Source: Clostridiales bacterium Firm_14 | GTDB taxonomy: Bacteria; Bacillota; Clostridia; Saccharofermentanales; Saccharofermentanaceae | Direction of reading: 5' to 3' | Assembly: GCA_001604135.1 (NCBI GenBank) | Contig: LVAT01000013.1 | Coordinates: forward strand, 124,001 to 188,000 | Length of the DNA stretch: 64,000 nt | Shown here: positions 2,167 to 50,998 of the stretch, piece by piece | Position numbering within the stretch: the stretch's first letter is position 1 | Layout: the number at the start of each line of letters is the position of its first letter | Position numbers and translations under genes: made by a program | The notes under the pieces: generated by a model | Database searches by the model: none | What the model was told of the DNA's origin: nothing | Seen by the model: only the letters and a program-made list of their open reading frames with translations

Positions 2167-3228
2167 ATGACGAAGAAAGTCTTTATCGGTAATGTAGAGG
2201 TCGGCGGCGGATCTTCTGTTAAGATCCAGTCGATGAATAATACTGATACGAGAGATGCCAAAGCTACTCTTGCTCAGATAAAGGAACTGGCAGACAACGG
2301 ATGTGATATCACCAGAGTCGCCATTCCCGACATGGAAGCCGCATTGAGCCTTAAGGAGATCACTTCAAAATCTCCGATTCCTGTTGTTGCAGATATTCAT
2401 TTCGATTACAGACTTGCTCTGGCAGCCGCAGACAACGGTGCGTCAAAGATAAGGATCAACCCCGGAAATATCGGCGGACCTGACAAAGTTAAGCTTGTCG
2501 CTGATAAATGTAAAGAGCGGCATATACCGATCAGAGTCGGTGTCAATTCCGGTTCGATATCCAGGGAGATACTTGCCAAATACGGTGAAGTAAACGCTGA
2601 TGCCATGACGGAGAGCGCTTTAGGCGCAGTAAAGCTTCTTGAAGATCAGGATTTCGACGATATCGTAATATCGATCAAATCATCTTCTCCCAAGCTTACG
2701 ATCGATACTTACAGGATTTTGGCCAAGTCTTGTGATTATCCTCTTCATGTCGGCGTCACTGAGGCAGGTACAGTCAGAGAAGGCGCGATCAAATCTGCAG
2801 TAGGTATCGGCGCGCTTCTTGCTGAAGGAATAGGTGATACCATAAGAGTTTCCTTAACAGGTAATCCTGTTGATGAAGTTATTACAGCTAAGCAGATCCT
2901 CAAAGCTCTTGACTTAAGAGACGGAGGCATTACTTTTATATCCTGTCCGACGTGCGGCAGAACCCAGGTTCCGCTTATCGAACTTGCAGGACAGATAGAA
3001 GAGAAGGTTTCCAAGCTTCCCTATAACCTTAAAGTTGCTGTCATGGGTTGTGTTGTCAACGGACCCGGAGAGGCACGCGAATGTGATATCGGATTAGCCG
3101 GCGGCATCGACGAATTTGTTTTATTTGAAAAAGGTGTGCCGGTCAGGAAGATTCCAGCTTCCGTGGCCGTTGATGAATTTGTAAGGGAAGTGATCAGAGT
3201 TGGAGAAGAAAAGTGTAAAGCTACTTGA
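2167..3228 (+). CDS. ispG: 4-hydroxy-3-methylbut-2-en-1-yl diphosphate synthase (flavodoxin/ferredoxin)
   Basis: IspG (GcpE) is a [4Fe-4S] enzyme that reduces MEcPP to HMBPP late in the MEP pathway. The N-terminal TIM barrel is recognisable from 'SMNNTDTRD', 'VADIHFDYRLAL' and 'KIRINPGNIG'. The C-terminal domain holds the three cluster cysteines in 'CPTCGRTQ' and 'MGCVVNGPGEA'. I place the start at ATG 2167, not the upstream in-frame TTG at 2152, because GGAG at 2154-2157 makes a good ribosome binding site about nine bases before that ATG. The 3' end overlaps the presumed TTG start of polC by 29 bases. With dxr nearby, the cell uses the MEP route, and the next steps are coded elsewhere. Confidence 0.95.
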   Translation: MTKKVFIGNVEVGGGSSVKIQSMNNTDTRDAKATLAQIKELADNGCDITRVAIPDMEAALSLKEITSKSPIPVVADIHFDYRLALAAADNGASKIRINPGNIGGPDKVKLVADKCKERHIPIRVGVNSGSISREILAKYGEVNADAMTESALGAVKLLEDQDFDDIVISIKSSSPKLTIDTYRILAKSCDYPLHVGVTEAGTVREGAIKSAVGIGALLAEGIGDTIRVSLTGNPVDEVITAKQILKALDLRDGGITFISCPTCGRTQVPLIELAGQIEEKVSKLPYNLKVAVMGCVVNGPGEARECDIGLAGGIDEFVLFEKGVPVRKIPASVAVDEFVREVIRVGEEKCKAT

Positions 3229-6200
3229 ATTATTCAATGTAGAAGACGACAGATATAAGGATTTAGTTGACCTTACGGTTGTTAAGGTCGATATCTACAA
3301 GGCAAAAGCATCGATCAACATTATCCTCGAGGGCATTGAGAACCTTAAGGACAACAGAAGTATTGTTTCTTTTGTAGAAGAGCTTGAACGTGATTTCGGG
3401 ACGAAGGTCAATTTCGCGTTCAAAGGTATTAACCGTGACAATTTTCCTTATCTCTATGAATCCTTAAGAGGTCTTATTAAGCATTACATCGCACGCGACA
3501 GCGCAGGCGGTGTATGTGACATGGTCGATTTCATCAATCTCAGTTTTGACGGTGATTATGAGACCGTAAATATCGATATTCCTACCGGCTGGTCTGCGAT
3601 GCTGACAGATTTCGACAGGAAGAACCTCAAAGAGTCCGTTGGTGATGCCGTTAATATCTGTGTTGCTGACAGGATAGATTTTAATTATGAGATCGTAAGC
3701 AGCGTGCCTGAAGTCGCAGTATCAGATTTTGAGCGTGAAGACGATATCCTTAAAGCGATTGCGGAAGGCAGAGTGGAATTCCCTGCAGAAGAACCTGTAG
3801 AAGAGCAGGCCGCGAAGGGAACTAAGAAAAAGAAGTCAGATGATGCGAAGGCTTCTGATGCCAAGCCCGCTTCTAAGGATTCATGGGCAGCCAAGGCTGA
3901 GCAGGTAAGAAAAGAAGCAAAGCAGGAAGATAAGCAGTCTTTTTACAGAGCAAAAGAGAATGCCGAGAATCAGTTGTATGGCCGTGTGAAGAAGCAGGCT
4001 ACATTCATGAAGATCGAGAATCTCACAGTCGGATGCTTTGATGTTAATATTGCCGGTGATATCTCGTTTAATGATGACAGCTTTAAGCTTGCGAAAACAG
4101 GCAAGAGCGTTGTCGTTAAGTTTATGTGTTTGGATGATACAGACGGTATATCCTGTATCGCATTCTTAAAGCCCGAGGAGGCTGACAGCTTCCAGAAAGA
4201 ATACGGCAAAGGCGGCTTTATCGGCATTCAGGGAAATGTTGAGAATGACTCTTTCACAGGCGACAAGATGCTTAAAGTCTCAGGCTTTTTCAGTGTGGAA
4301 AAACCGCCCAAGAGAAAGGATAATTCAAAGCGCAAGAGAGTTGAGCTTCACGTCCACACCAAGATGAGTGAGAGTGACGCCACGACTGAACCTGCCGACC
4401 TTGTTAAGCTTGCCGCATCTTTTGGCCACAGTGCTGTTGCTGTCACTGACCACGGTGTTGTCCAGGCATTCCCTCATGTTTTCGAGGCTGCCAAAGGAAT
4501 AAACAAGAAACGCAAGGATACAGGTGAAGAACCGATCAAATGCATTCTCGGATGTGAAGGATATCTTGTTGATGACGGTCCGACCGTCTTTTATAACCTT
4601 CCTTATGATGTTAAGAACGATAAGATAAAGCCTTCTGATGTCGATGATGATGCTTCCTTAAACTTTATCCAGAAGCCCAAGGCTGTTGGCTCTTTTGTCT
4701 CCATCGTAATTAACAGGAATGGTGATGATGCCCTTCGGGATACATTTACGTCTGTATGCGCATCCAAGTTCAGACTTAAGGGTTATAAAGCGGTTAAGCC
4801 TGAAGAAGAGGGTGAATCTGATCAGGATGCAATGGACTTTGCATCCCACGATATTGACAAGTCACTCTGGGATCCTGATGAGATACCTGAAGAACTCAGA
4901 GACGAGAATATTAATGCTAAGCCTTTGGAGCCGCACGCTCCTTTAGGTGCTGCATGTAATGTCGATCTCGACATTAACGGTGATTATGCTGACGGAAGTG
5001 ATGAAGTCATCCCGGAAGAACTGGTTTTCGAGCATGTCGCTGATTTCCACGCGGAATTCGGTGATGCTATTTATCCCGGCAAAGGTGAGCCATGCGACTC
5101 GTATTTTGCCATGGGAGAACTGTTGGAATTCATCGGTGATTCTTATATTACCGGTCCTGATATATTCACTACTCTGGCATTCCTACGCCGTGCAGGTTAC
5201 GGAATAAACATCGAAGATCACGTATATTACAGACATAAGTTCCTTATGCCTGCAACTTCAGATGAGGATATTCTTGAGACATTCTATAACGATGAGTACA
5301 AGAACATTGATGAAGCATTGAGCAGCAAAGGCGTTGCGTTTGAATATGCACCTGACGGAAGCATCTTCGATAGTATGTTCACCAAGTGCTATAAGTCAGC
5401 TTCTCTGCTTGTTGCATGCCTTAAGGATGCAGGGACTGTTGATGCTTTGTCCATCAACTATTCTGTCGGACACTATAAGCCGGAGAGGATTAAGTCCACG
5501 AAGAAGATTTCTCCGTCGAGTCCTATTAGGGAAGCACCTACTTACCATATTATTTATCTTGTGCGTTCCAATATGGGACTTTACAACCTGTACCGTATTG
5601 TATCTGAATCCCAGATACACTATTTCGCTTTAAGACCCAGAACTCCAAAGAGTCTTTTGAAGTATTTCAAATCTGGAATTATCGTTGGCGGTGCATGCGA
5701 GCGCGGTGAGATATACCGTTTTGTAATATCGAAATACAGAGAACTCAATAAGGACAGACAGGCTACAAGAGATTTCCTGAAAGAATCTAAAGAGTTCGCA
5801 AAGATATTGAGCCTTTACGACTATGTTGAGATCCAGCCTCTGTGCAACAATATGTTCATCATAAGACAGGATCCTTCAAAATCTGATACGGGAACTACTC
5901 CCATGAATGAGGATGACATCCGTATCATTAACGAGCTGCTCGTAGAGACTGCTGACGATCACGGCATGATGTGCTGCGCTACGACTGACTCGCACTTCCT
6001 TAATAAAGAAGACGGCCGTTACAGAAAATACATGCTGATTAGCATGGGCTTCAGTGATGCCGAGATGCAAAGTGATCTTTACTTCAGAACGACAGATGAG
6101 ATGCTCGATGAGTTTAAGTATCTGGGCGAAGAGAAAGCAATGGAGGTCGTTGTCGACAACACTAATAAGATCGCGGATCTTATCGAGTTCGGCATAAAGC

Positions 6201-8134
6201 CGTTCCCTGACGGCTCTTATCCGCCTCAGATCGCTAGAGCCGCTGCGGATGTAAGAGATATCGCTTATACAAAGGCTAACCGTATGTACCGTCATAACGG
6301 TGTCCTCAATGAGGTTGTCAAGGCCAGACTCGACAGAGAGCTTGCATCAATTATCGGTAACGGTTATGCGATCATGTACTACATCGCATACCGACTCGTT
6401 AAGAAGTCAAATAACGACGGATATGTTGTAGGTTCAAGAGGTTCAGTCGGTTCTTCATTTGCCGCTACAATGTGCGGTATCTCTGAAGTTAACCCGCTGC
6501 CTCCGCATTACAGATGCCCGAAGTGCAACTATGCTGAATTTGATAACACCGGTGTGTACGGATCAGGTTACGATCTTCCTCCGAAGAACTGTCCCGAATG
6601 CGGCGAGAAGCTAATTCCTGACGGACAGGATATTCCTTTCGAGACATTCCTCGGATTCAAGGGCGATAAGCAGCCCGATATCGACCTTAACTTCTCCGGT
6701 GAATACCAGCCGAGGGCGCATGCATATGTAGGAGTATTGTTCGGAGGAACACATACATTTAAGGCCGGCACGATCGGCGCTTACCAGGATAAGAACGCTT
6801 ACGGCGTTTGCCGTAAGATCTGTGAAGAGAAGGGAGAACCCTTTACACAGGCGCACCTGGCATTCATGGCACGAGACATTATCGGTGTTAAGAGAACCAC
6901 ATCCCAGCACCCGGGCGGTATCGTCGTTATTGCCAAGGAAATGGATATCTATGAATTTACTCCGATCCAGTTCCCGGCTAACAAGACTGACTGCGGAATC
7001 ATCACGACGCACTTCGACTTCCGCGCGATGCACGACACGATACTTAAACTCGATATTCTTGGTCACGCTGATCCTACCGTTTTGAGAATGCTCAGCGATA
7101 TTACAGGCATTAACATCACGGATATCCCAATCCCTGACGAGAAGGTTATGAGCCTTCTTGTCGGCACGGATGCTCTGGGTTTCCCGATAGATGCCACAGA
7201 TGCGGGTTCCGCAACACTTGGCCTTTCGGAACTTGGTACCAACATGGCGCGAGGCATGATCAAGGAAACAAAACCTACAAGGTTCTACGATCTTGTACAG
7301 CTCATGGGCCTTTCGCACGGTACCGACGTTTGGACAGGCAATGCCCAGGATCTTATCAGGAGCGGAACATGCGACCTTAATTCCGTTATCGGATGCCGTG
7401 ACTCCATCATGACAAGCCTTATCTATTGGGGACTTCCCAACAAAGACGCTTTCGACATCATGGAGGGCGTACGTAAAGGTAAGGTTGCCGCAGGCAAGGT
7501 CGAGAAATGGCCTGAATACGTTAAAGAGATGAAAGAATGCGGAGTGCCTGACTGGTATATCGAATCTTGCCAGAAGATCAAGTACATGTTCCCGAAGGCG
7601 CACGCCGCAGCTTATGCTATCTCCACTTTGAGAGTTGCATGGTTTAAGGTCTACTATCCTGAAGAGTATTACTGCTCATTCTTTACCCACAGAGGTGAAG
7701 GATTATTCGATGCCGAGCAGATGTGCAACGGACCTGAGAGGGTAAAGAAGAGAAGGATCGAGCTTGCAGACGAGATGCATGCAAAAGGCGACCCTAATAC
7801 AAAGCTTAAGTACTATTTCTATGAGCTCATTGAGGAGATGTATGCAAGAGGCATTACCTTTGCGCCTATCACGCTCAATGATTCTCTCGGAAAGAAGTTT
7901 ACCAAGGCGGGAGAAAAGCTCATAAGGCCTCCGTTCTGTGCCATTGCAGGCGTATCGGAAGCTAACGGACTTGATATTGAAAATGCCCGTAAAGACGGTG
8001 AATTCAAGAACAGGGACGAGTTCATGAAGAGGACAGGCTTAGGCCAGTCCGTTGTTCAGAAACTTTTGGATTATGGAGGTATTCTCAACGATCTTCCCGA
8101 GAGTGCCCAGATGAATCTTTTTGATCTGATGTGA
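3200..8134 (+). CDS. polC: DNA polymerase III alpha subunit, PolC type, with a decayed exonuclease domain
   Basis: This is the replicative polymerase of low-GC Gram-positives. Order of parts: an N-terminal domain; a Lys/Ala/Glu-rich linker near 195-255; an OB fold (~268-370); a PHP domain starting with HVH at 384-386; the region where PolC normally carries a DnaQ-like 3'-5' exonuclease (~490-745); then a near-canonical polymerase core. The core includes a four-cysteine zinc knuckle near 1105-1135 and the catalytic 'PDIDLNFSG' (D1160, D1162). In the exonuclease region the D-x-E-T motif is replaced by 'FVSIVINRNG' (~497), the AHNAxFD motif by 'TGPDIFTTLAFL' (~651) and HxxxYDT by 'FTKCYKSA' (~727), so proofreading in cis is probably lost. 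Length (1644 aa) exceeds the usual ~1430-1470. The TTG start is inferred from frame and a GGGAAG site at 3185. Confidence 0.95.
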   Translation: MEKKSVKLLELFNVEDDRYKDLVDLTVVKVDIYKAKASINIILEGIENLKDNRSIVSFVEELERDFGTKVNFAFKGINRDNFPYLYESLRGLIKHYIARDSAGGVCDMVDFINLSFDGDYETVNIDIPTGWSAMLTDFDRKNLKESVGDAVNICVADRIDFNYEIVSSVPEVAVSDFEREDDILKAIAEGRVEFPAEEPVEEQAAKGTKKKKSDDAKASDAKPASKDSWAAKAEQVRKEAKQEDKQSFYRAKENAENQLYGRVKKQATFMKIENLTVGCFDVNIAGDISFNDDSFKLAKTGKSVVVKFMCLDDTDGISCIAFLKPEEADSFQKEYGKGGFIGIQGNVENDSFTGDKMLKVSGFFSVEKPPKRKDNSKRKRVELHVHTKMSESDATTEPADLVKLAASFGHSAVAVTDHGVVQAFPHVFEAAKGINKKRKDTGEEPIKCILGCEGYLVDDGPTVFYNLPYDVKNDKIKPSDVDDDASLNFIQKPKAVGSFVSIVINRNGDDALRDTFTSVCASKFRLKGYKAVKPEEEGESDQDAMDFASHDIDKSLWDPDEIPEELRDENINAKPLEPHAPLGAACNVDLDINGDYADGSDEVIPEELVFEHVADFHAEFGDAIYPGKGEPCDSYFAMGELLEFIGDSYITGPDIFTTLAFLRRAGYGINIEDHVYYRHKFLMPATSDEDILETFYNDEYKNIDEALSSKGVAFEYAPDGSIFDSMFTKCYKSASLLVACLKDAGTVDALSINYSVGHYKPERIKSTKKISPSSPIREAPTYHIIYLVRSNMGLYNLYRIVSESQIHYFALRPRTPKSLLKYFKSGIIVGGACERGEIYRFVISKYRELNKDRQATRDFLKESKEFAKILSLYDYVEIQPLCNNMFIIRQDPSKSDTGTTPMNEDDIRIINELLVETADDHGMMCCATTDSHFLNKEDGRYRKYMLISMGFSDAEMQSDLYFRTTDEMLDEFKYLGEEKAMEVVVDNTNKIADLIEFGIKPFPDGSYPPQIARAAADVRDIAYTKANRMYRHNGVLNEVVKARLDRELASIIGNGYAIMYYIAYRLVKKSNNDGYVVGSRGSVGSSFAATMCGISEVNPLPPHYRCPKCNYAEFDNTGVYGSGYDLPPKNCPECGEKLIPDGQDIPFETFLGFKGDKQPDIDLNFSGEYQPRAHAYVGVLFGGTHTFKAGTIGAYQDKNAYGVCRKICEEKGEPFTQAHLAFMARDIIGVKRTTSQHPGGIVVIAKEMDIYEFTPIQFPANKTDCGIITTHFDFRAMHDTILKLDILGHADPTVLRMLSDITGINITDIPIPDEKVMSLLVGTDALGFPIDATDAGSATLGLSELGTNMARGMIKETKPTRFYDLVQLMGLSHGTDVWTGNAQDLIRSGTCDLNSVIGCRDSIMTSLIYWGLPNKDAFDIMEGVRKGKVAAGKVEKWPEYVKEMKECGVPDWYIESCQKIKYMFPKAHAAAYAISTLRVAWFKVYYPEEYYCSFFTHRGEGLFDAEQMCNGPERVKKRRIELADEMHAKGDPNTKLKYYFYELIEEMYARGITFAPITLNDSLGKKFTKAGEKLIRPPFCAIAGVSEANGLDIENARKDGEFKNRDEFMKRTGLGQSVVQKLLDYGGILNDLPESAQMNLFDLM

Positions 8135-46800: not shown

Positions 46801-48302
46801 TTGTAGTTGCAATGAACGAGCGTCAGGAGCTTATCGATAAGGGCGAAGCAAGGGTATTCGTTCCTGAAGAAAACGACAGCGCTCCTTACACATTGCAGCG
46901 TGTTGAATTTACTAAGGAACATAAGAAGAATCACACTATCCTGGCCCCCCAGATGGCGCCTGTCCAATTCGAGCTTGTTGAGTCCGTATTCCATAAGCAC
47001 GGATATAAGTTAAAGCTCTTAAAGCAGGCTACACGTGAGGATATCGAGTGCGGTCTTAAGTTCGTTAATAACGACGCATGCTTCCCGACGATAATCGTTG
47101 TCGGACAGATGATAAATGCGATCTTAAAAGGCGAGATCGATCCAGATAATACGACGCTTGCAATAACACAGACGGGCGGCGGTTGCCGTGCTACTAACTA
47201 TGTAGCGTTCCTGCGTAAGGCTTTGAAGGAAGCAGGTTATCCGCAGATCCCTGTCATCACGATCTCTGCTCAGAGATTCGAAAAGAATGAAGGTTTTGAA
47301 TACACGATCTCATTCGCGCTCGATGCAATCAAGGCACTCTGCGCAGGCGATATGCTCTCTACATTGCTCTTGAGAGTAAGGCCTTACGAGAAGGTTCCGG
47401 GTTCTGCTAATGCCCTGTATTCCTACATAAACAGGATCGGCAGAAAGCTTTTCAATCCCAAGAACTTAAATGACGACCTTACCGAGAGATATGATGTCAT
47501 GATGCCTAACAGTTACTTTTCCAAGTCCATCGAGGAGAAGAAGGAGATCCTGGATTGCCTCTCACAGATCGGTGTTGATTTCGATAATCCTCCGGTAATA
47601 ACGAAGTATAAGGAATTCGTTAAGTTCGCAGTATCCAAGTTCGATGCGCTTCCTCTGGCAGATATTCCGAGAAAGCCTCGTGTCGGTCTTGTTGGCGAGA
47701 TCTTAGTAAAGTTCCAGCCTGATGCAAATAACAATGCAATTGATGTTATCGAAGCAGAAGGCTGCGAAGCAGTGCTTCCGGGCGTATTGGACTTCTTCCT
47801 GTACTGCGCTTATAACCCTGTATGGCAGGCACAGAACCTCGGCAAGAGCAAGAAGACCGGTTATATCATGAAGACTGCAATAAGATTCCTTGAGTCTTTG
47901 AGAAAGCCTATAAATAAGGAGTTTGCAAAGACAAACGGCAAGTTCATGCTGACAGAGAGGATTCAGGAACTGGCTGAGAAATCTTCTACCGTATTAAGCT
48001 GCGGCAACTCCTGCGGTGAGGGCTGGTTCCTTACAGCTGAGATGATCGAGCTTATCCAGGACGGCGTTCCGAACATCATCTGCGCACAGCCTTTCGCGTG
48101 CCTCCCTAACCATGTAACAGGCAAGGGCATGATCAAGGAATTGAGAAGACAGTATCCTAAGTCAAATATCGTTCCGATCGACTACGATCCGGGCGCATCT
48201 GAAGCTAACCAGCTTAACCGTATCAAGCTCATGATCAGCACAGCGCGTGCCGTAAGAGAGCAGGAAATTGAAGATGAGAAGAAAGCGAACGGGGGCAACT
48301 GA
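43857..48302 (+). CDS. Giant acyl-CoA dehydratase activase-like protein (two BadF ATPase domains plus CoA-dehydratase-like part)
   Basis: This is a 1482-residue protein of the 2-hydroxyacyl-CoA dehydratase activase group found in anaerobes. Two actin-fold ATPase domains are seen: residues ~5-265 ('LGLDIGSTTIKVV', 'GTCAGGTGSFIDQ') and ~320-575 ('LGVDAGSTTTKAV', 'IGGQDMKCMKI', 'SSGCGSFIQT'). A cysteine motif ('CQGCTNHCRL') follows near 603, then HgdB/DUF2229-like segments ('YPAKLAHGHIENL', 'AGRPYHCDPEINHG') to the C-terminus. Known activases bind a [4Fe-4S] cluster and inject an electron into the dehydratase using ATP. The true substrate of the fused giant proteins is not known to me. ATG 43857 follows a GGAGGG site. 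The stop codon overlaps the polA start. Confidence 0.85.
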   Translation: MGKVYKLGLDIGSTTIKVVLLDGEKIIHSDYQRHHSDVSGLLNDLFEDLNKKFPGIDVDVVITGSGGLSVANWLGFKFTQEVMAETQAIKTYHPETDVIIELGGEDAKITYMHPVLEQRMNGTCAGGTGSFIDQMASLLQTDADGLNNFAKDYRSLYTIASRCGVFAKSDLQPLINEGAAKEDLAASIYQSVVNQTISGLACGRPIKGNVTFLGGPLFFNSELRNAFERTLEGKVDSFWMPEEAQIYVALGAALSADGKNPVNLSDLLEKLKNREGFVPDIIRIDPIFKSKEDKKAFDDRHMKDQIPVLNIKDQTGALFLGVDAGSTTTKAVVINRKGDLVYTYYASNKGNPVMSAVAIMKDIYSKMPDDCYIAHSCVTGYGENIIKAALNIDEGEIETMAHFQSAKFFCPDVDFIIDIGGQDMKCMKIRNGVIDSIMLNEACSSGCGSFIQTFAQTLGLTTPEFAEAALSSTKPVDLGTRCTVFMNSKVKQAQKEGASVGDISAGLSYSVVRNALYKVIKIRDTEQLGKNIVVQGGTFLNDAILRCFELVSGRDVIRPNVAGLMGAFGAALIARKRGHEDGRSNVLGKDELDSFKMDTENTQCQGCTNHCRLTIATFSNGTKFVSGNRCERGEDLALDREPASDKKKLPNLFDYKYSRTFSYYKPLKLEDAPRGEIGIPRVLNQYENYPFWFTVLTKLGFRVLISARSSHKIYEGGMETIPSESVCYPAKLAHGHIENLIDRGITTIFYPDVPYENIENQNSNNHYNCPIVCSYPEVIRNNVENLLEKNIRYLNPFMPLDNLDNVALHLTECFDYLGVSAEEAKQAVQAGSEEYFKYKEDIRNKGQEILKEMEEKGLKGIVLAGRPYHCDPEINHGIPQMINSLGLAVLTEDSVAKPGVLKRPIRVIDQWMYHTRLYEAAAFVITRPDLELVQLTSFGCGLDAVTSDQVQEILETSGKLYTLLKIDEVSNLGAARIRMRSLVVAMNERQELIDKGEARVFVPEENDSAPYTLQRVEFTKEHKKNHTILAPQMAPVQFELVESVFHKHGYKLKLLKQATREDIECGLKFVNNDACFPTIIVVGQMINAILKGEIDPDNTTLAITQTGGGCRATNYVAFLRKALKEAGYPQIPVITISAQRFEKNEGFEYTISFALDAIKALCAGDMLSTLLLRVRPYEKVPGSANALYSYINRIGRKLFNPKNLNDDLTERYDVMMPNSYFSKSIEEKKEILDCLSQIGVDFDNPPVITKYKEFVKFAVSKFDALPLADIPRKPRVGLVGEILVKFQPDANNNAIDVIEAEGCEAVLPGVLDFFLYCAYNPVWQAQNLGKSKKTGYIMKTAIRFLESLRKPINKEFAKTNGKFMLTERIQELAEKSSTVLSCGNSCGEGWFLTAEMIELIQDGVPNIICAQPFACLPNHVTGKGMIKELRRQYPKSNIVPIDYDPGASEANQLNRIKLMISTARAVREQEIEDEKKANGGN

Positions 48303-50998
48303 TGAGCACACTCCTTCTTGTTGACGGCAACTCAATAATCAACAGAGCATACTATGCCGTAATCGGCAGAGCTCCAATGACAGCGCCTGACGGTACACCG
48401 ACCGGTGCCGTAAACGGATTCTTTAATTCCGTACTTGGCGTCATGAAGGAATATAACCCTGATTACATGTGTGTTCTTTTCGACAGGAGAGAACCCACAT
48501 TCAGACATAAGATGAGCACGGATTATAAGGCTAACCGTAAGGGTATGCCTGATGACCTCGCTGCCCAGATGCCAGTAGTTAAGAATATGCTCGATCTCTA
48601 CGGCATCAAGCGCATGGAGCTTGCAGGATATGAAGCTGACGACCTTATCGGCACTTTGTCAAAACAGGGCGAGGCAGAAGGTATGGACGTTTATATCTTC
48701 AGCGGCGACCACGACGATTTCCAGCTGATCTCAGATAAGGTCTCAGTCATAATGCCGCAGTCGGGCAAGGGGAAAGAACCCAGAGTCTTATTCGACCGTA
48801 AGATGTTCGAAGAGACTTACGGCGTTAAGCCTGAAGTATTCGTTCAGGTAAAAGCTCTCATGGGTGATAATTCCGATAACATCAAGGGCGTCGAGAAGGT
48901 AGGAGAGAAGACTGCTTTTAAGCTGATAGCAGACTACGGTTCATGCGAAGAAGTTTTCAATAACGCAGATAAATTGTCTCCTGCTTTGGGCGAGAGGATA
49001 AAGAATTCCAAAGAACTCTTAGAGCTTAATATCAAGCTCTGCACGATCGACCGCGAATCTCCCGTTGAGGAAGGCGCTAAGGACTGCACATATCCTTCAG
49101 CGACAAGAGATTTTCCTGCATTGTCCGGCGTTCTTAACCGCCTCGCGTTAAGGTCGCTCATTAAGAAACTCGATCTCGAAGACATTAAGCCTTCAGGCTT
49201 TGAGACTACTGAAGAAGTTGATGATTTCACTTCTGGCATTTCCAAAGAAGTTGAGACATGCCTTAAGTCAGCGCTTAACATCAGGTATGAAGTGCCTTCA
49301 TCATTTGATTTTGATGATCTTAACTGCGGTATCGATTTTGTCGATATCATGTCAGGCAACAAGGTCATACTTCTTGACTGGAAAGCCAAGACCTTCTATG
49401 TGACAGATCCTGAAGATTTCGCCAAGTTGTCTTCTAGCAAGAAGGTAATGCCCGTATCCTACGAGTATAAGGACAGATCGAAGATAATTAGAGAGCCTTT
49501 GGCTTCCGTTGATTCCGTTTTCGATTGCGCGATCGCAGGATATGTTCTTAATATCCTTTCAGGCAAGCCTGATCTTCAGAGATTATATGAGAGCGTATTG
49601 AAATCCGCTTATCCCGTTGAGGACAAGAAGGGCCCTGTAAAGCAGCTTTCCTTATTCGATGAGATCACTGAAGATGACGGTTCATCGAAGGTTGAAGAGA
49701 CCTGTTCAAAGCTCCTTGCTGTTACGGCTATCGCGAAAGTGATGTCCCGTGACATCGAAAACGATAAGGACCTTAAGAGCCTGTTGTACGATATTGAATT
49801 CCCGCTCGTAATAACTCTTGATAAGATCGAGAGAAACGGTATGCACGTATCAGGCGAAAGGCTTTCAGAGCTTCACAGCGAGTATACAAAGCGTCTGGAA
49901 GATATCAGTGCCAGGGTTTTTGATGCGTGCGGCACGGAGTTTAATATTGGTTCTCCCAAGCAGCTTGCAGAGGTCCTGTTCGGCGAAAAGCACCTTAACC
50001 TGCCTTCTGGAAAGAAAGGCAAGAGCGGTGATTTCTCGACAGGTATCGATGAACTTAAGAGATTAAGACCTTATTTTCCGGAGATCGATTACATCATCGA
50101 ATACAGAGAGCTTTCAAAACTTGATTCCACATATGCCGTAGGCCTTGCAAGATCCATTAAGAGCGACAACAGGATCCATACGACATTTACTCAGGCAATG
50201 ACAAATACGGGAAGATTATCTTCAACAGAACCTAATCTCCAGAACATTCCGGTAAGGACAGAAGAGGGATCCAGACTCCGTGAAGCCTTTACTGCAGAGG
50301 AAGGCAAGATCTTAGTCGATGCCGACTATTCGCAGATCGAGTTAAGGCTTCTTGCTGCATTAAGCGGCGATGAAGTAATGTGCTCTGCGTTCTTAGACGG
50401 CGAAGACATCCATAAGAGAACTGCCGCTAAAGTCTACGGCGTAACTGAAGACATGGTTACGCATAAGATGAGAGCGACTGCAAAGACAGTAAACTTCAGT
50501 ATCATTTACGGTATCTCTGATTACGGCCTTGCGACTGATCTCGGTATCAGCTATAAGGAAGCTTCGGACCTTATCAAGGAATACAACAACCAGTTCCCGG
50601 GCGTAACTTCTTACCTCGAGTCTTTGCGCAAGTCAGGTGAAGAGAAGGGCTATGCGGTAACGATGTATGGACGTAAGAGGATCTTAAACGAGCTTAAGAG
50701 CCAGAACAGGAACATTAAGAATTTCGGTTACAGGGCAGCAATGAATACGCCGATACAGGGCACAGCCGCTGACATAATCAAGATCGCCATGAACCGCGTA
50801 TCCAAGGCATTATCAGAAAAGCTTCCTTCAGCAAAGCTCGTAATGCAGGTACACGACGAACTTATATGCGAATGTGATATTGAAGATAAGGATCTTTGCG
50901 CATCAATCCTTAAGGAAGAGATGGAAACGGCAGCTAAACTGAGCGTTCCGCTCCTTGCAGAAGTGGGATTTGGAAAAGACTGGCTGGAGGCTAAATAA
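48302..50998 (+). CDS. polA: DNA polymerase I, with no visible 3'-5' exonuclease motifs
   Basis: Pol I fills gaps and removes RNA primers in lagging-strand maturation and repair. The N-terminal 5'-3' nuclease (~1-300) shows 'LVDGNSIINRAYY' and 'FSGDHDDFQLIS'. The middle domain (~310-520), where E. coli has the 3'-5' proofreading site, lacks the D-x-E motif and looks like the inactive version of Bacillus Pol I. The polymerase domain has motif A 'DADYSQIELR' (Asp at ~675), motif B 'KTVNFSIIYGIS' and motif C 'QVHDEL'. Length (898 aa) is normal. The start codon overlaps the stop of the activase gene (TGATG), and coaE starts in the same way at its end. Confidence 0.96.
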   Translation: MSTLLLVDGNSIINRAYYAVIGRAPMTAPDGTPTGAVNGFFNSVLGVMKEYNPDYMCVLFDRREPTFRHKMSTDYKANRKGMPDDLAAQMPVVKNMLDLYGIKRMELAGYEADDLIGTLSKQGEAEGMDVYIFSGDHDDFQLISDKVSVIMPQSGKGKEPRVLFDRKMFEETYGVKPEVFVQVKALMGDNSDNIKGVEKVGEKTAFKLIADYGSCEEVFNNADKLSPALGERIKNSKELLELNIKLCTIDRESPVEEGAKDCTYPSATRDFPALSGVLNRLALRSLIKKLDLEDIKPSGFETTEEVDDFTSGISKEVETCLKSALNIRYEVPSSFDFDDLNCGIDFVDIMSGNKVILLDWKAKTFYVTDPEDFAKLSSSKKVMPVSYEYKDRSKIIREPLASVDSVFDCAIAGYVLNILSGKPDLQRLYESVLKSAYPVEDKKGPVKQLSLFDEITEDDGSSKVEETCSKLLAVTAIAKVMSRDIENDKDLKSLLYDIEFPLVITLDKIERNGMHVSGERLSELHSEYTKRLEDISARVFDACGTEFNIGSPKQLAEVLFGEKHLNLPSGKKGKSGDFSTGIDELKRLRPYFPEIDYIIEYRELSKLDSTYAVGLARSIKSDNRIHTTFTQAMTNTGRLSSTEPNLQNIPVRTEEGSRLREAFTAEEGKILVDADYSQIELRLLAALSGDEVMCSAFLDGEDIHKRTAAKVYGVTEDMVTHKMRATAKTVNFSIIYGISDYGLATDLGISYKEASDLIKEYNNQFPGVTSYLESLRKSGEEKGYAVTMYGRKRILNELKSQNRNIKNFGYRAAMNTPIQGTAADIIKIAMNRVSKALSEKLPSAKLVMQVHDELICECDIEDKDLCASILKEEMETAAKLSVPLLAEVGFGKDWLEAK

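Follow-up and report, generated by a model that had tools for sequence, protein, structure and literature searches.

The 64,000-nucleotide stretch of Clostridiales bacterium Firm_14 (contig LVAT01000013.1, positions 124,001 to 188,000), as a whole called the window below, carries polC, the gene for the PolC-type DNA polymerase III. The encoded PolC lacks all five DEDDh residues of the DnaQ-like exonuclease normally found inside the PHP domain, and, as judged from its sequence and those of its relatives, the exonuclease domain of this genus is a conserved pseudo-exonuclease. Nucleotide coordinates are window positions and residue numbers are those of PolC; g1 is the genus of the window genome, g2 to g5 are other genera of its family, and L and G numbers denote loci and genomes. 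Papers cited by PMC number are drawn on in excerpt. The features of the gene are the following.

3200..8134, + strand: polC, DNA polymerase III, PolC-type, exonuclease domain inactivated; 1644 residues, TTG start.
4313..4600, + strand: PHP domain, first part, residues 372-467 (Pfam PF02811); ligands H384, H386, D417, H418 and E453.
4652..5515, + strand: degenerate DnaQ-like exonuclease domain, residues 485-772 (alignments, hhalign, AlphaFold2 (AF2) model, structural match).
4697..4723, + strand: Exo I position, VSIVINRNG for ALDVETTGL (D to V503, E to N505; alignment).
4775..5098, + strand: acidic insert, residues 526-633, net charge -24 in 108 residues (alignment).
5153..5182, + strand: Exo II position, GPDIFTTLAF for GHNIFFDMGF (D to T658; alignment).
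5378..5404, + strand: Exo III position, FTKCYKSAS; H lost, D to K729 (alignment).
5531..6169, + strand: PHP domain, second part, residues 778-990; ligands H783, C833, D930 and H932.
6674..7066, + strand: polymerase active-site region; D1160 and D1162 (PDIDLNFSG) and D1285 (LKLDILGH) intact (sequence).
8108..8131, + strand: C-terminal QMNLFDLM (sequence).

The protein scores above the cut-offs of two PolC families, NF001688 (1245.9 bits, cut-off 873) and TIGR01405 (1127 bits, cut-off 1043), has Pfam matches to PHP, DNA_pol3_alpha, finger and HHH_6, and is the single PolC found in its own genome. D1160, D1162 and D1285 are presumably the catalytic aspartates of the polymerase, and we take QMNLFDLM to be a clamp-binding-like motif. 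In its polymerase, PHP and HhH parts the protein agrees with known PolCs, and the alignment to Enterococcus faecium PolC, for which a Pol-null pair of aspartates has been described (PMC12592400), is interrupted over residues 471-772, the usual site of the exonuclease domain. An earlier sequence-only reading had put the degenerate region at residues ~490-745; the location is right, and the end has to be moved to about residue 772. The dead domain has 288 residues against 189-214 in nine intact domains, and the whole protein 1644 against 1524-1565 in 16 g3 reading frames and 1474 in the E. faecium PolC chain. The excess of about 180 residues given in that reading is thus about right relative to distant PolCs, but relative to the nearest exonuclease-intact genus it is 80-120.

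Alignment to the exonuclease-intact PolCs of g3 shows how complete the loss is. Their SFVALDVETTG becomes SFVSIVINRNG in the window PolC, their GHNIFFDMGF becomes GPDIFTTLAF and their HRAMGD aligns within the stretch SMFTKC; the five DEDDh positions read V, N, T, gap and K, with the frame of the domain preserved and no acidic set at the active-site positions. The absence of the three catalytic motifs, which the sequence-only reading had claimed, is thereby confirmed, and the stretches LLEFIGD and FLRRAGYGI, which it had taken for remaining landmarks of the fold, are real exonuclease-domain landmarks, correctly placed. Pfam recognises no exonuclease family in the window PolC, PF00929 included, and its DnaQ-type families match 0 of 16 dead domains, while all 24 intact domains, serving as control, match RNase_T. 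The published exonuclease-inactivated form of E. faecium PolC carries D431A and E433A (PMC12592400); these are the exo I positions, here V and N by way of the g3 alignment rather than residue by residue against E. faecium. Sequencing error or frameshift is ruled out, since the DEDDh set is present in 0 of the 65 g1 main-copy PolCs read (65 genomes) and in 16 of 16 distinct g3 PolCs; no close relative read has an intact copy. The number of DEDDh residues kept is 0 in 52 of the g1 main copies, 1 in 12 and 2 in 1. Loss of DnaQ-type proofreading in cis is accordingly supported by sequence, family scans and relatives alike. The g1 PolC rows listed in the main genus search have no internal stops, some PolCs being cut at contig ends or split. 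In a single genome (G087, L068) polC has an in-frame TAA downstream of the exonuclease domain, giving frames of 1228 and 384 residues; this may be an error or a genuine interruption.

The window PolC is nevertheless predicted to keep a DnaQ-fold exonuclease domain at the normal place inside PHP. Compared by hhalign with a profile of 24 intact PolC exonuclease domains, a profile of the dead domain scores 96.8% with E 2.8e-10, the match being confined to the C-terminal half. PDB sequences searched with a profile yield chance-level matches only (best E 1.5, with DnaQ 8h18 among the three), so that for the N-terminal half the sequence evidence by itself is weak. An AF2 model of residues 372-990, built with 40 relatives including intact ones, reaches a predicted local distance difference test score (pLDDT) of 88.2 and a predicted template-modelling score (pTM) of 0.87, and over its residues ~122 to ~390 it scores Z ~10-11 against epsilon, RNase T and DinG. 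A model of the domain alone, from 16 g1 members only, reaches pLDDT 78.9 and pTM 0.77; its best VIA matches are to the exonuclease domain of E. faecium PolC, at Z 14.8 (root-mean-square deviation 3.3, 163 residues aligned) and 14.2 (2.9, 161), with Z 12.9 for E. coli epsilon, and the top Foldseek match of the domain model is a DnaQ domain (8h2f, E 5.1e-5). An unrelated insertion in place of a degenerate domain is ruled out by the profile comparison together with the fold.

Ratios of nonsynonymous to synonymous substitution rates (dN/dS) were obtained from 37 g1 PolCs, whose 666 pairs include the 248 used here, those with a synonymous rate (dS) below 1.6; of these, 191-248 per region were left after undefined dS values had been dropped. 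Within the dead domain the medians are 0.058 (exo-N), 0.067 (insert) and 0.084 (exo-C); elsewhere in g1 PolC they are 0.025 (PHP-N), 0.060 (PHP-C), 0.031 (polymerase) and 0.111 (N-terminal part), and the intact exonuclease parts of g3 give 0.045 and 0.038. These values indicate that the dead domain is under purifying selection, far from neutral evolution. The ratio of domain to polymerase amino-acid divergence, 1.6-4.4 in ten g1 pairs, overlaps the range of twelve intact ones (1.4-5.5); ten other dead ones give 2.1-5.2. The acidic insert is present in the g1 rows and absent from the g2-g5 rows aligned. Net charge is -22 to -30 in seven other g1 dead domains against -4 to -17 in nine intact ones, and -6 to -14 in eight dead ones from other genera. 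Several acidic positions of the g1 domain do not vary. That the domain is kept under selection in g1, though other lineages have reduced it to 9-25 residues (seven loci: Heliobacterium, two Phascolarctobacterium, Acidaminococcaceae, Cuneatibacter, L190 and L215), argues for a non-catalytic role.

The distribution of the loss was followed from genus to class. A PolC match, whole or part, occurs in 58 of 59 g1 genomes, the exception (G016, 64% complete) showing DnaE-type matches only. The PolCs read from g2 (1), g4 (2) and g5 (3) are also exonuclease-dead, with up to three residues remaining in g4. A family scan with PF00929 finds a match within the PolC frame in 23 of 23 g3 genomes and, among the matches listed, which may leave out very weak ones, in 0 of 68 g1 genomes, barring the second PolC of G106, which is probably foreign. 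Of the 15 closest named relatives in which the domain was found (L148-L162, 48-89% identity over it), seven are titled Saccharofermentans sp., six Clostridiales bacterium and two uncultured Clostridia; from this we infer that g1 is Saccharofermentans. In the order outside the family, the 38 PolC loci read comprise 25 with an intact domain, 10 with one dead in place and 3 too incomplete to be scored; the dead ones belong to genera g9, g12, g30, g25 and g11, and the g30 domain misses part of its N-terminal half. By these alignments, in-place inactivation of the PolC exonuclease recurs within the order. A sample of 60 PolCs from as many other class genomes comprises 56 exonuclease-intact ones, 4 (of one family) without the domain and 0 dead in place; it was hand-picked with an exonuclease-intact query from the 176 matching class genomes outside the order (mostly high-scoring listed rows, plus four seeming to lack the domain), so that its rates are not frequencies and low-scoring dead-in-place PolCs could be missed.

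A quick tree of 72 rows, one of them unscored, requires no fewer than 8 switches between the intact and the lost state, with regain allowed, clean absences counted and the partial, ambiguous frame of L183 included. In it exonuclease-intact g3 is sister to g1 (Shimodaira-Hasegawa-like approximate likelihood ratio test, 81), so two losses in the family would be needed. A careful tree of 34 rows leaves the branching open and does not reject a grouping of all 23 exonuclease-dead rows (approximately unbiased test, p 0.445). One or two losses in the window's family are both compatible with the data.

Some individual lineages deserve mention. Genus g25 holds both states, L124 and L146 (the latter partial) being exonuclease-intact and L137 and L145 dead; its inactivation is probably the youngest seen and the best place to study the transition. 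The PolC frame of L183 (Lachnoclostridium sp. UBA933), with FHMMKTG for FDxETTG, may be poor sequence or a pseudogene. In g19, of family f2, 0 of 14 genomes have a PolC over the cut-off and DnaE-type matches only are seen; this lineage seems to have given up PolC and to rely on DnaE1 alone for replication. Both g27 genomes (G146, G174) have weak PolC matches only. Further PolC losses are possible in 12 of 196 class genomes without a match to the PolC query at E 1e-60 or better (G186, G214, G219, G261, G266, G284, G288, G318, G326, G343, G359 and G361), five of which are ~0.8-1.1 Mb genomes of family f8.

All nine PHP ligands of the window PolC are intact (HHDHEHCDH) and agree with the motif HHDHEH[C/H]DH as defined in PMC12926913. 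The sequence-only reading had rightly called PHP near canonical; the link to proofreading was not drawn there. The same nine residues are found in 82 of 82 exonuclease-dead PolCs with a readable PHP (66 from g1, one of them a paralogue, and 16 from other genera), including all 65 g1 main copies, and in each of the four exonuclease-absent PolCs of the class sample. This count comes from genome-search loci, with five rows of incomplete PHP dropped; 80 pattern-search loci were left out because their search patterns contain PHP residues, for which reason the invariance of the ligand columns in one alignment of PHP (A2) is partly built in. The PHP of DnaE1 has the same nine ligands in 16 of 16 proteins read (nine from g1, four from g3-g5, three from a genus without PolC).

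Broken PHP sites were seen in L132 (G110; HKDRELLNH), L287 (G369; KHDTDSNDY) and L056 (G106; HHDIEHCDH), all with intact DEDDh; L056 comes from a genome with 6% contamination that has another PolC as well, and it may be foreign. The g1 paralogue is an N-terminally short second PolC (G007, L055:1916-5710, + strand, frame of 1265 residues) in which the polymerase aspartates are R, P and E and the exonuclease residues are gone, with the nine PHP ligands intact; it looks to be a PolC relic keeping only PHP. The frame upstream of it has, by eye, the look of a replicative-helicase or RecA-type ATPase.

Other proofreading and repair candidates were sought in the same genomes. The window's own genome has one PF00929 match (L001), a protein of ~359 residues scoring 39.9 bits (cut-off 24). 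Related proteins are found in each of three other g1 genomes read (59-93% identity) and in all four exonuclease-intact g3 loci read (33-35% identity over ~300 residues). Strong free DEDDh exonucleases (>100 bits, PolC frames excluded) occur, among the matches listed, in 25 of 68 g1 and 13 of 23 g3 genomes; the own genome has none by the PF00929 search, other exonuclease families lying outside that search. The window polA (48302-50998) has recognised 5'-3' exonuclease and polymerase domains and no 3'-5' exonuclease family match. A mutS match is present in 58 of 58 family genomes, 56 of them over the cut-off. The free DEDDh exonucleases read in ten loci (L109-L118) have 221-259 residues and are patchy in g1 and g3; L110, the sole one scanned, carries a topoisomerase-type C4 zinc ribbon (PF01396), and similar tails are seen by eye in others.

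Among known systems E. faecium PolC (9QPC/9QRN) is closest, having the PHP split by an exonuclease-fold domain, the polymerase core and HhH; the window domain matches residues 418-612 of 9QRN at the Z of 14.8 given above. It differs in that the window PolC lacks DEDDh, has an acidic insert of ~100 residues, and carries a domain that sequence families do not recognise. PolCs without the Exo insertion make up 6% of PolC, in Clostridia and Negativicutes plus one extra Thermotogae copy, and 'except in 16%' is stated for PolC paired with DnaE1 (PMC3919608); some members of the window group may be among these 16%. The Exo-lacking PolCs share with the window PolC the absence of a DnaQ proofreader, an intact PHP and the pairing with DnaE1, but the insertion is missing there, whereas here a 288-residue domain is retained, enlarged and folded in prediction. 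DnaE1 of Mycobacterium tuberculosis presumably has no embedded DnaQ domain. There PHP is the shown proofreader (PMC5636811), and the proposed likeness is that of a replicative C-family polymerase relying on PHP, not DEDD, proofreading; the role of PHP was shown by experiment in that case and is suggested by ligand conservation in ours. Retention of a DnaQ-like domain after loss of its active site is known from bacterial Pol I, PolA2 and PolB2, of which PolB2 and PolA2 have been associated with translesion or mutagenic repair (PMC12926913). The window case differs in being a PolC, since the same 2026 survey, as excerpted, has PHP and not DnaQ inactivated in Pol III alpha. To that statement the window PolC and its relatives are a counter-example, with PHP kept and DnaQ inactivated in place. 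No published inactivated DnaQ domain in PolC, nor any Saccharofermentans Pol III, was found in the literature listings and excerpts consulted, supplementary files being outside the scope.

The reading that we favor, at a probability of about 0.6, is that PolC is an active replicase in this genus and that the DnaQ-like exonuclease embedded in it has turned into a conserved pseudo-exonuclease, retained for a purpose other than catalysis. The dead domain may hold the PHP/thumb architecture or dock a partner through its conserved acidic insert, while misincorporated nucleotides would be removed by the PHP exonuclease sites of PolC and DnaE1, with MutS mismatch repair behind them. Proofreading in the window PolC is, on ligand conservation, most likely by PHP, the older, metal-dependent site of the protein, and an intact PHP could have made the repeated loss of DnaQ activity tolerable in the order. 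Several results weigh on the other side. The dead exo-C of g1 evolves about two times faster than its intact g3 counterpart (0.084 vs 0.038), and the dN/dS pairs are non-independent with dS near saturation. The domain is not structurally obligatory, because other lineages keep PolC without it. Intact PHP ligands do not prove exonuclease activity, and HHDHEHCDH is also present in 39 of 41 exonuclease-intact PolCs from the genome searches and 55 of 56 from the class sample. PHP-broken PolCs number 0 among the exonuclease-lost and 3 among the exonuclease-intact, a weak test of complementarity because PHP is so rarely broken. A stronger version, which we put forward tentatively, is that the whole genus and, independently, other lineages switched their main replicase from DnaQ to PHP proofreading, the dead domain being a scaffold whose acidic, DNA-like insert steers the primer end from the dead site to PHP or DnaE1.

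The alternatives differ in where proofreading would reside. The fork might have no 3'-5' proofreading at PolC and rely on polymerase selectivity and MutS, a higher mutation rate being tolerated; the dead DnaQ domain, a Pol I without a recognisable 3'-5' exonuclease family and the presence of mutS fit this, but the retention of PHP ligands in every g1 PolC main copy and every DnaE1 read is hard to explain if the site is unused, and we consider it unlikely. Proofreading in trans, the separate exonuclease to which the sequence-only reading had turned, would suit a free DEDDh protein such as the ~359-residue RNase_T protein, which exists in the genome and has relatives in the other g1 genomes read, and strong free DEDDh proteins do occur in part of the genus. 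However, the ~359-residue type does not track exonuclease loss, since its relatives occur in exonuclease-intact g3, and so is no specific replacement; the strong type is patchy and, by PF00929, absent from the own genome. The proposal fares poorly on these grounds and is rather improbable. Equally improbable is that PolC has been demoted, with DnaE1 doing bulk synthesis under relaxed selection on proofreading, as a step towards PolC loss. The absence of PolC over the cut-off from all 14 genomes of g19, in another family of the order, and eroded exonuclease domains in several lineages of that family speak for it. Yet the polymerase and PHP-N are the most constrained parts of g1 PolC (0.031 and 0.025), PolC is matched in 58 of 59 g1 genomes, all but the incomplete G016, and the three polymerase aspartates are intact in 84 of 87 rows without the full exonuclease motif set, the 3 exceptions being the paralogue L055 and the incomplete frames L068 and L146. 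An exonuclease that has stayed active by taking its carboxylates from another place, for example the acidic insert, would fit the invariant acidic residues of the g1 domain, but the two carboxylates of exo I, the Asp of exo II and both the His and the Asp of exo III have been lost together, and changes at exo I alone (D431, E433) inactivate the exonuclease of E. faecium PolC (PMC12592400); we regard this as extremely improbable.

Where PolC has an active DnaQ domain besides PHP, it is difficult to find out whether PHP could serve as the main proofreader at the fork. The pseudo-exonuclease PolCs provide a natural experiment, in which the state of the DnaQ site varies between related genera, and once within a single genus, with PHP kept. 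They also carry a warning for annotation, as reading 'PolC' as proofreading-competent, or the lack of a Pfam hit as 'Exo lacking', can both mislead. If the switch to PHP is true, its successive stages would all be on view in the order: an intact domain, one that is dead but retained, one that is eroding, and the loss of PolC itself. For the bacteria concerned, a gut and rumen group, the loss of the DnaQ site in PolC would mean that, the alternative without 3'-5' proofreading aside, copying errors must be corrected in another way than by the DnaQ domain of PolC.

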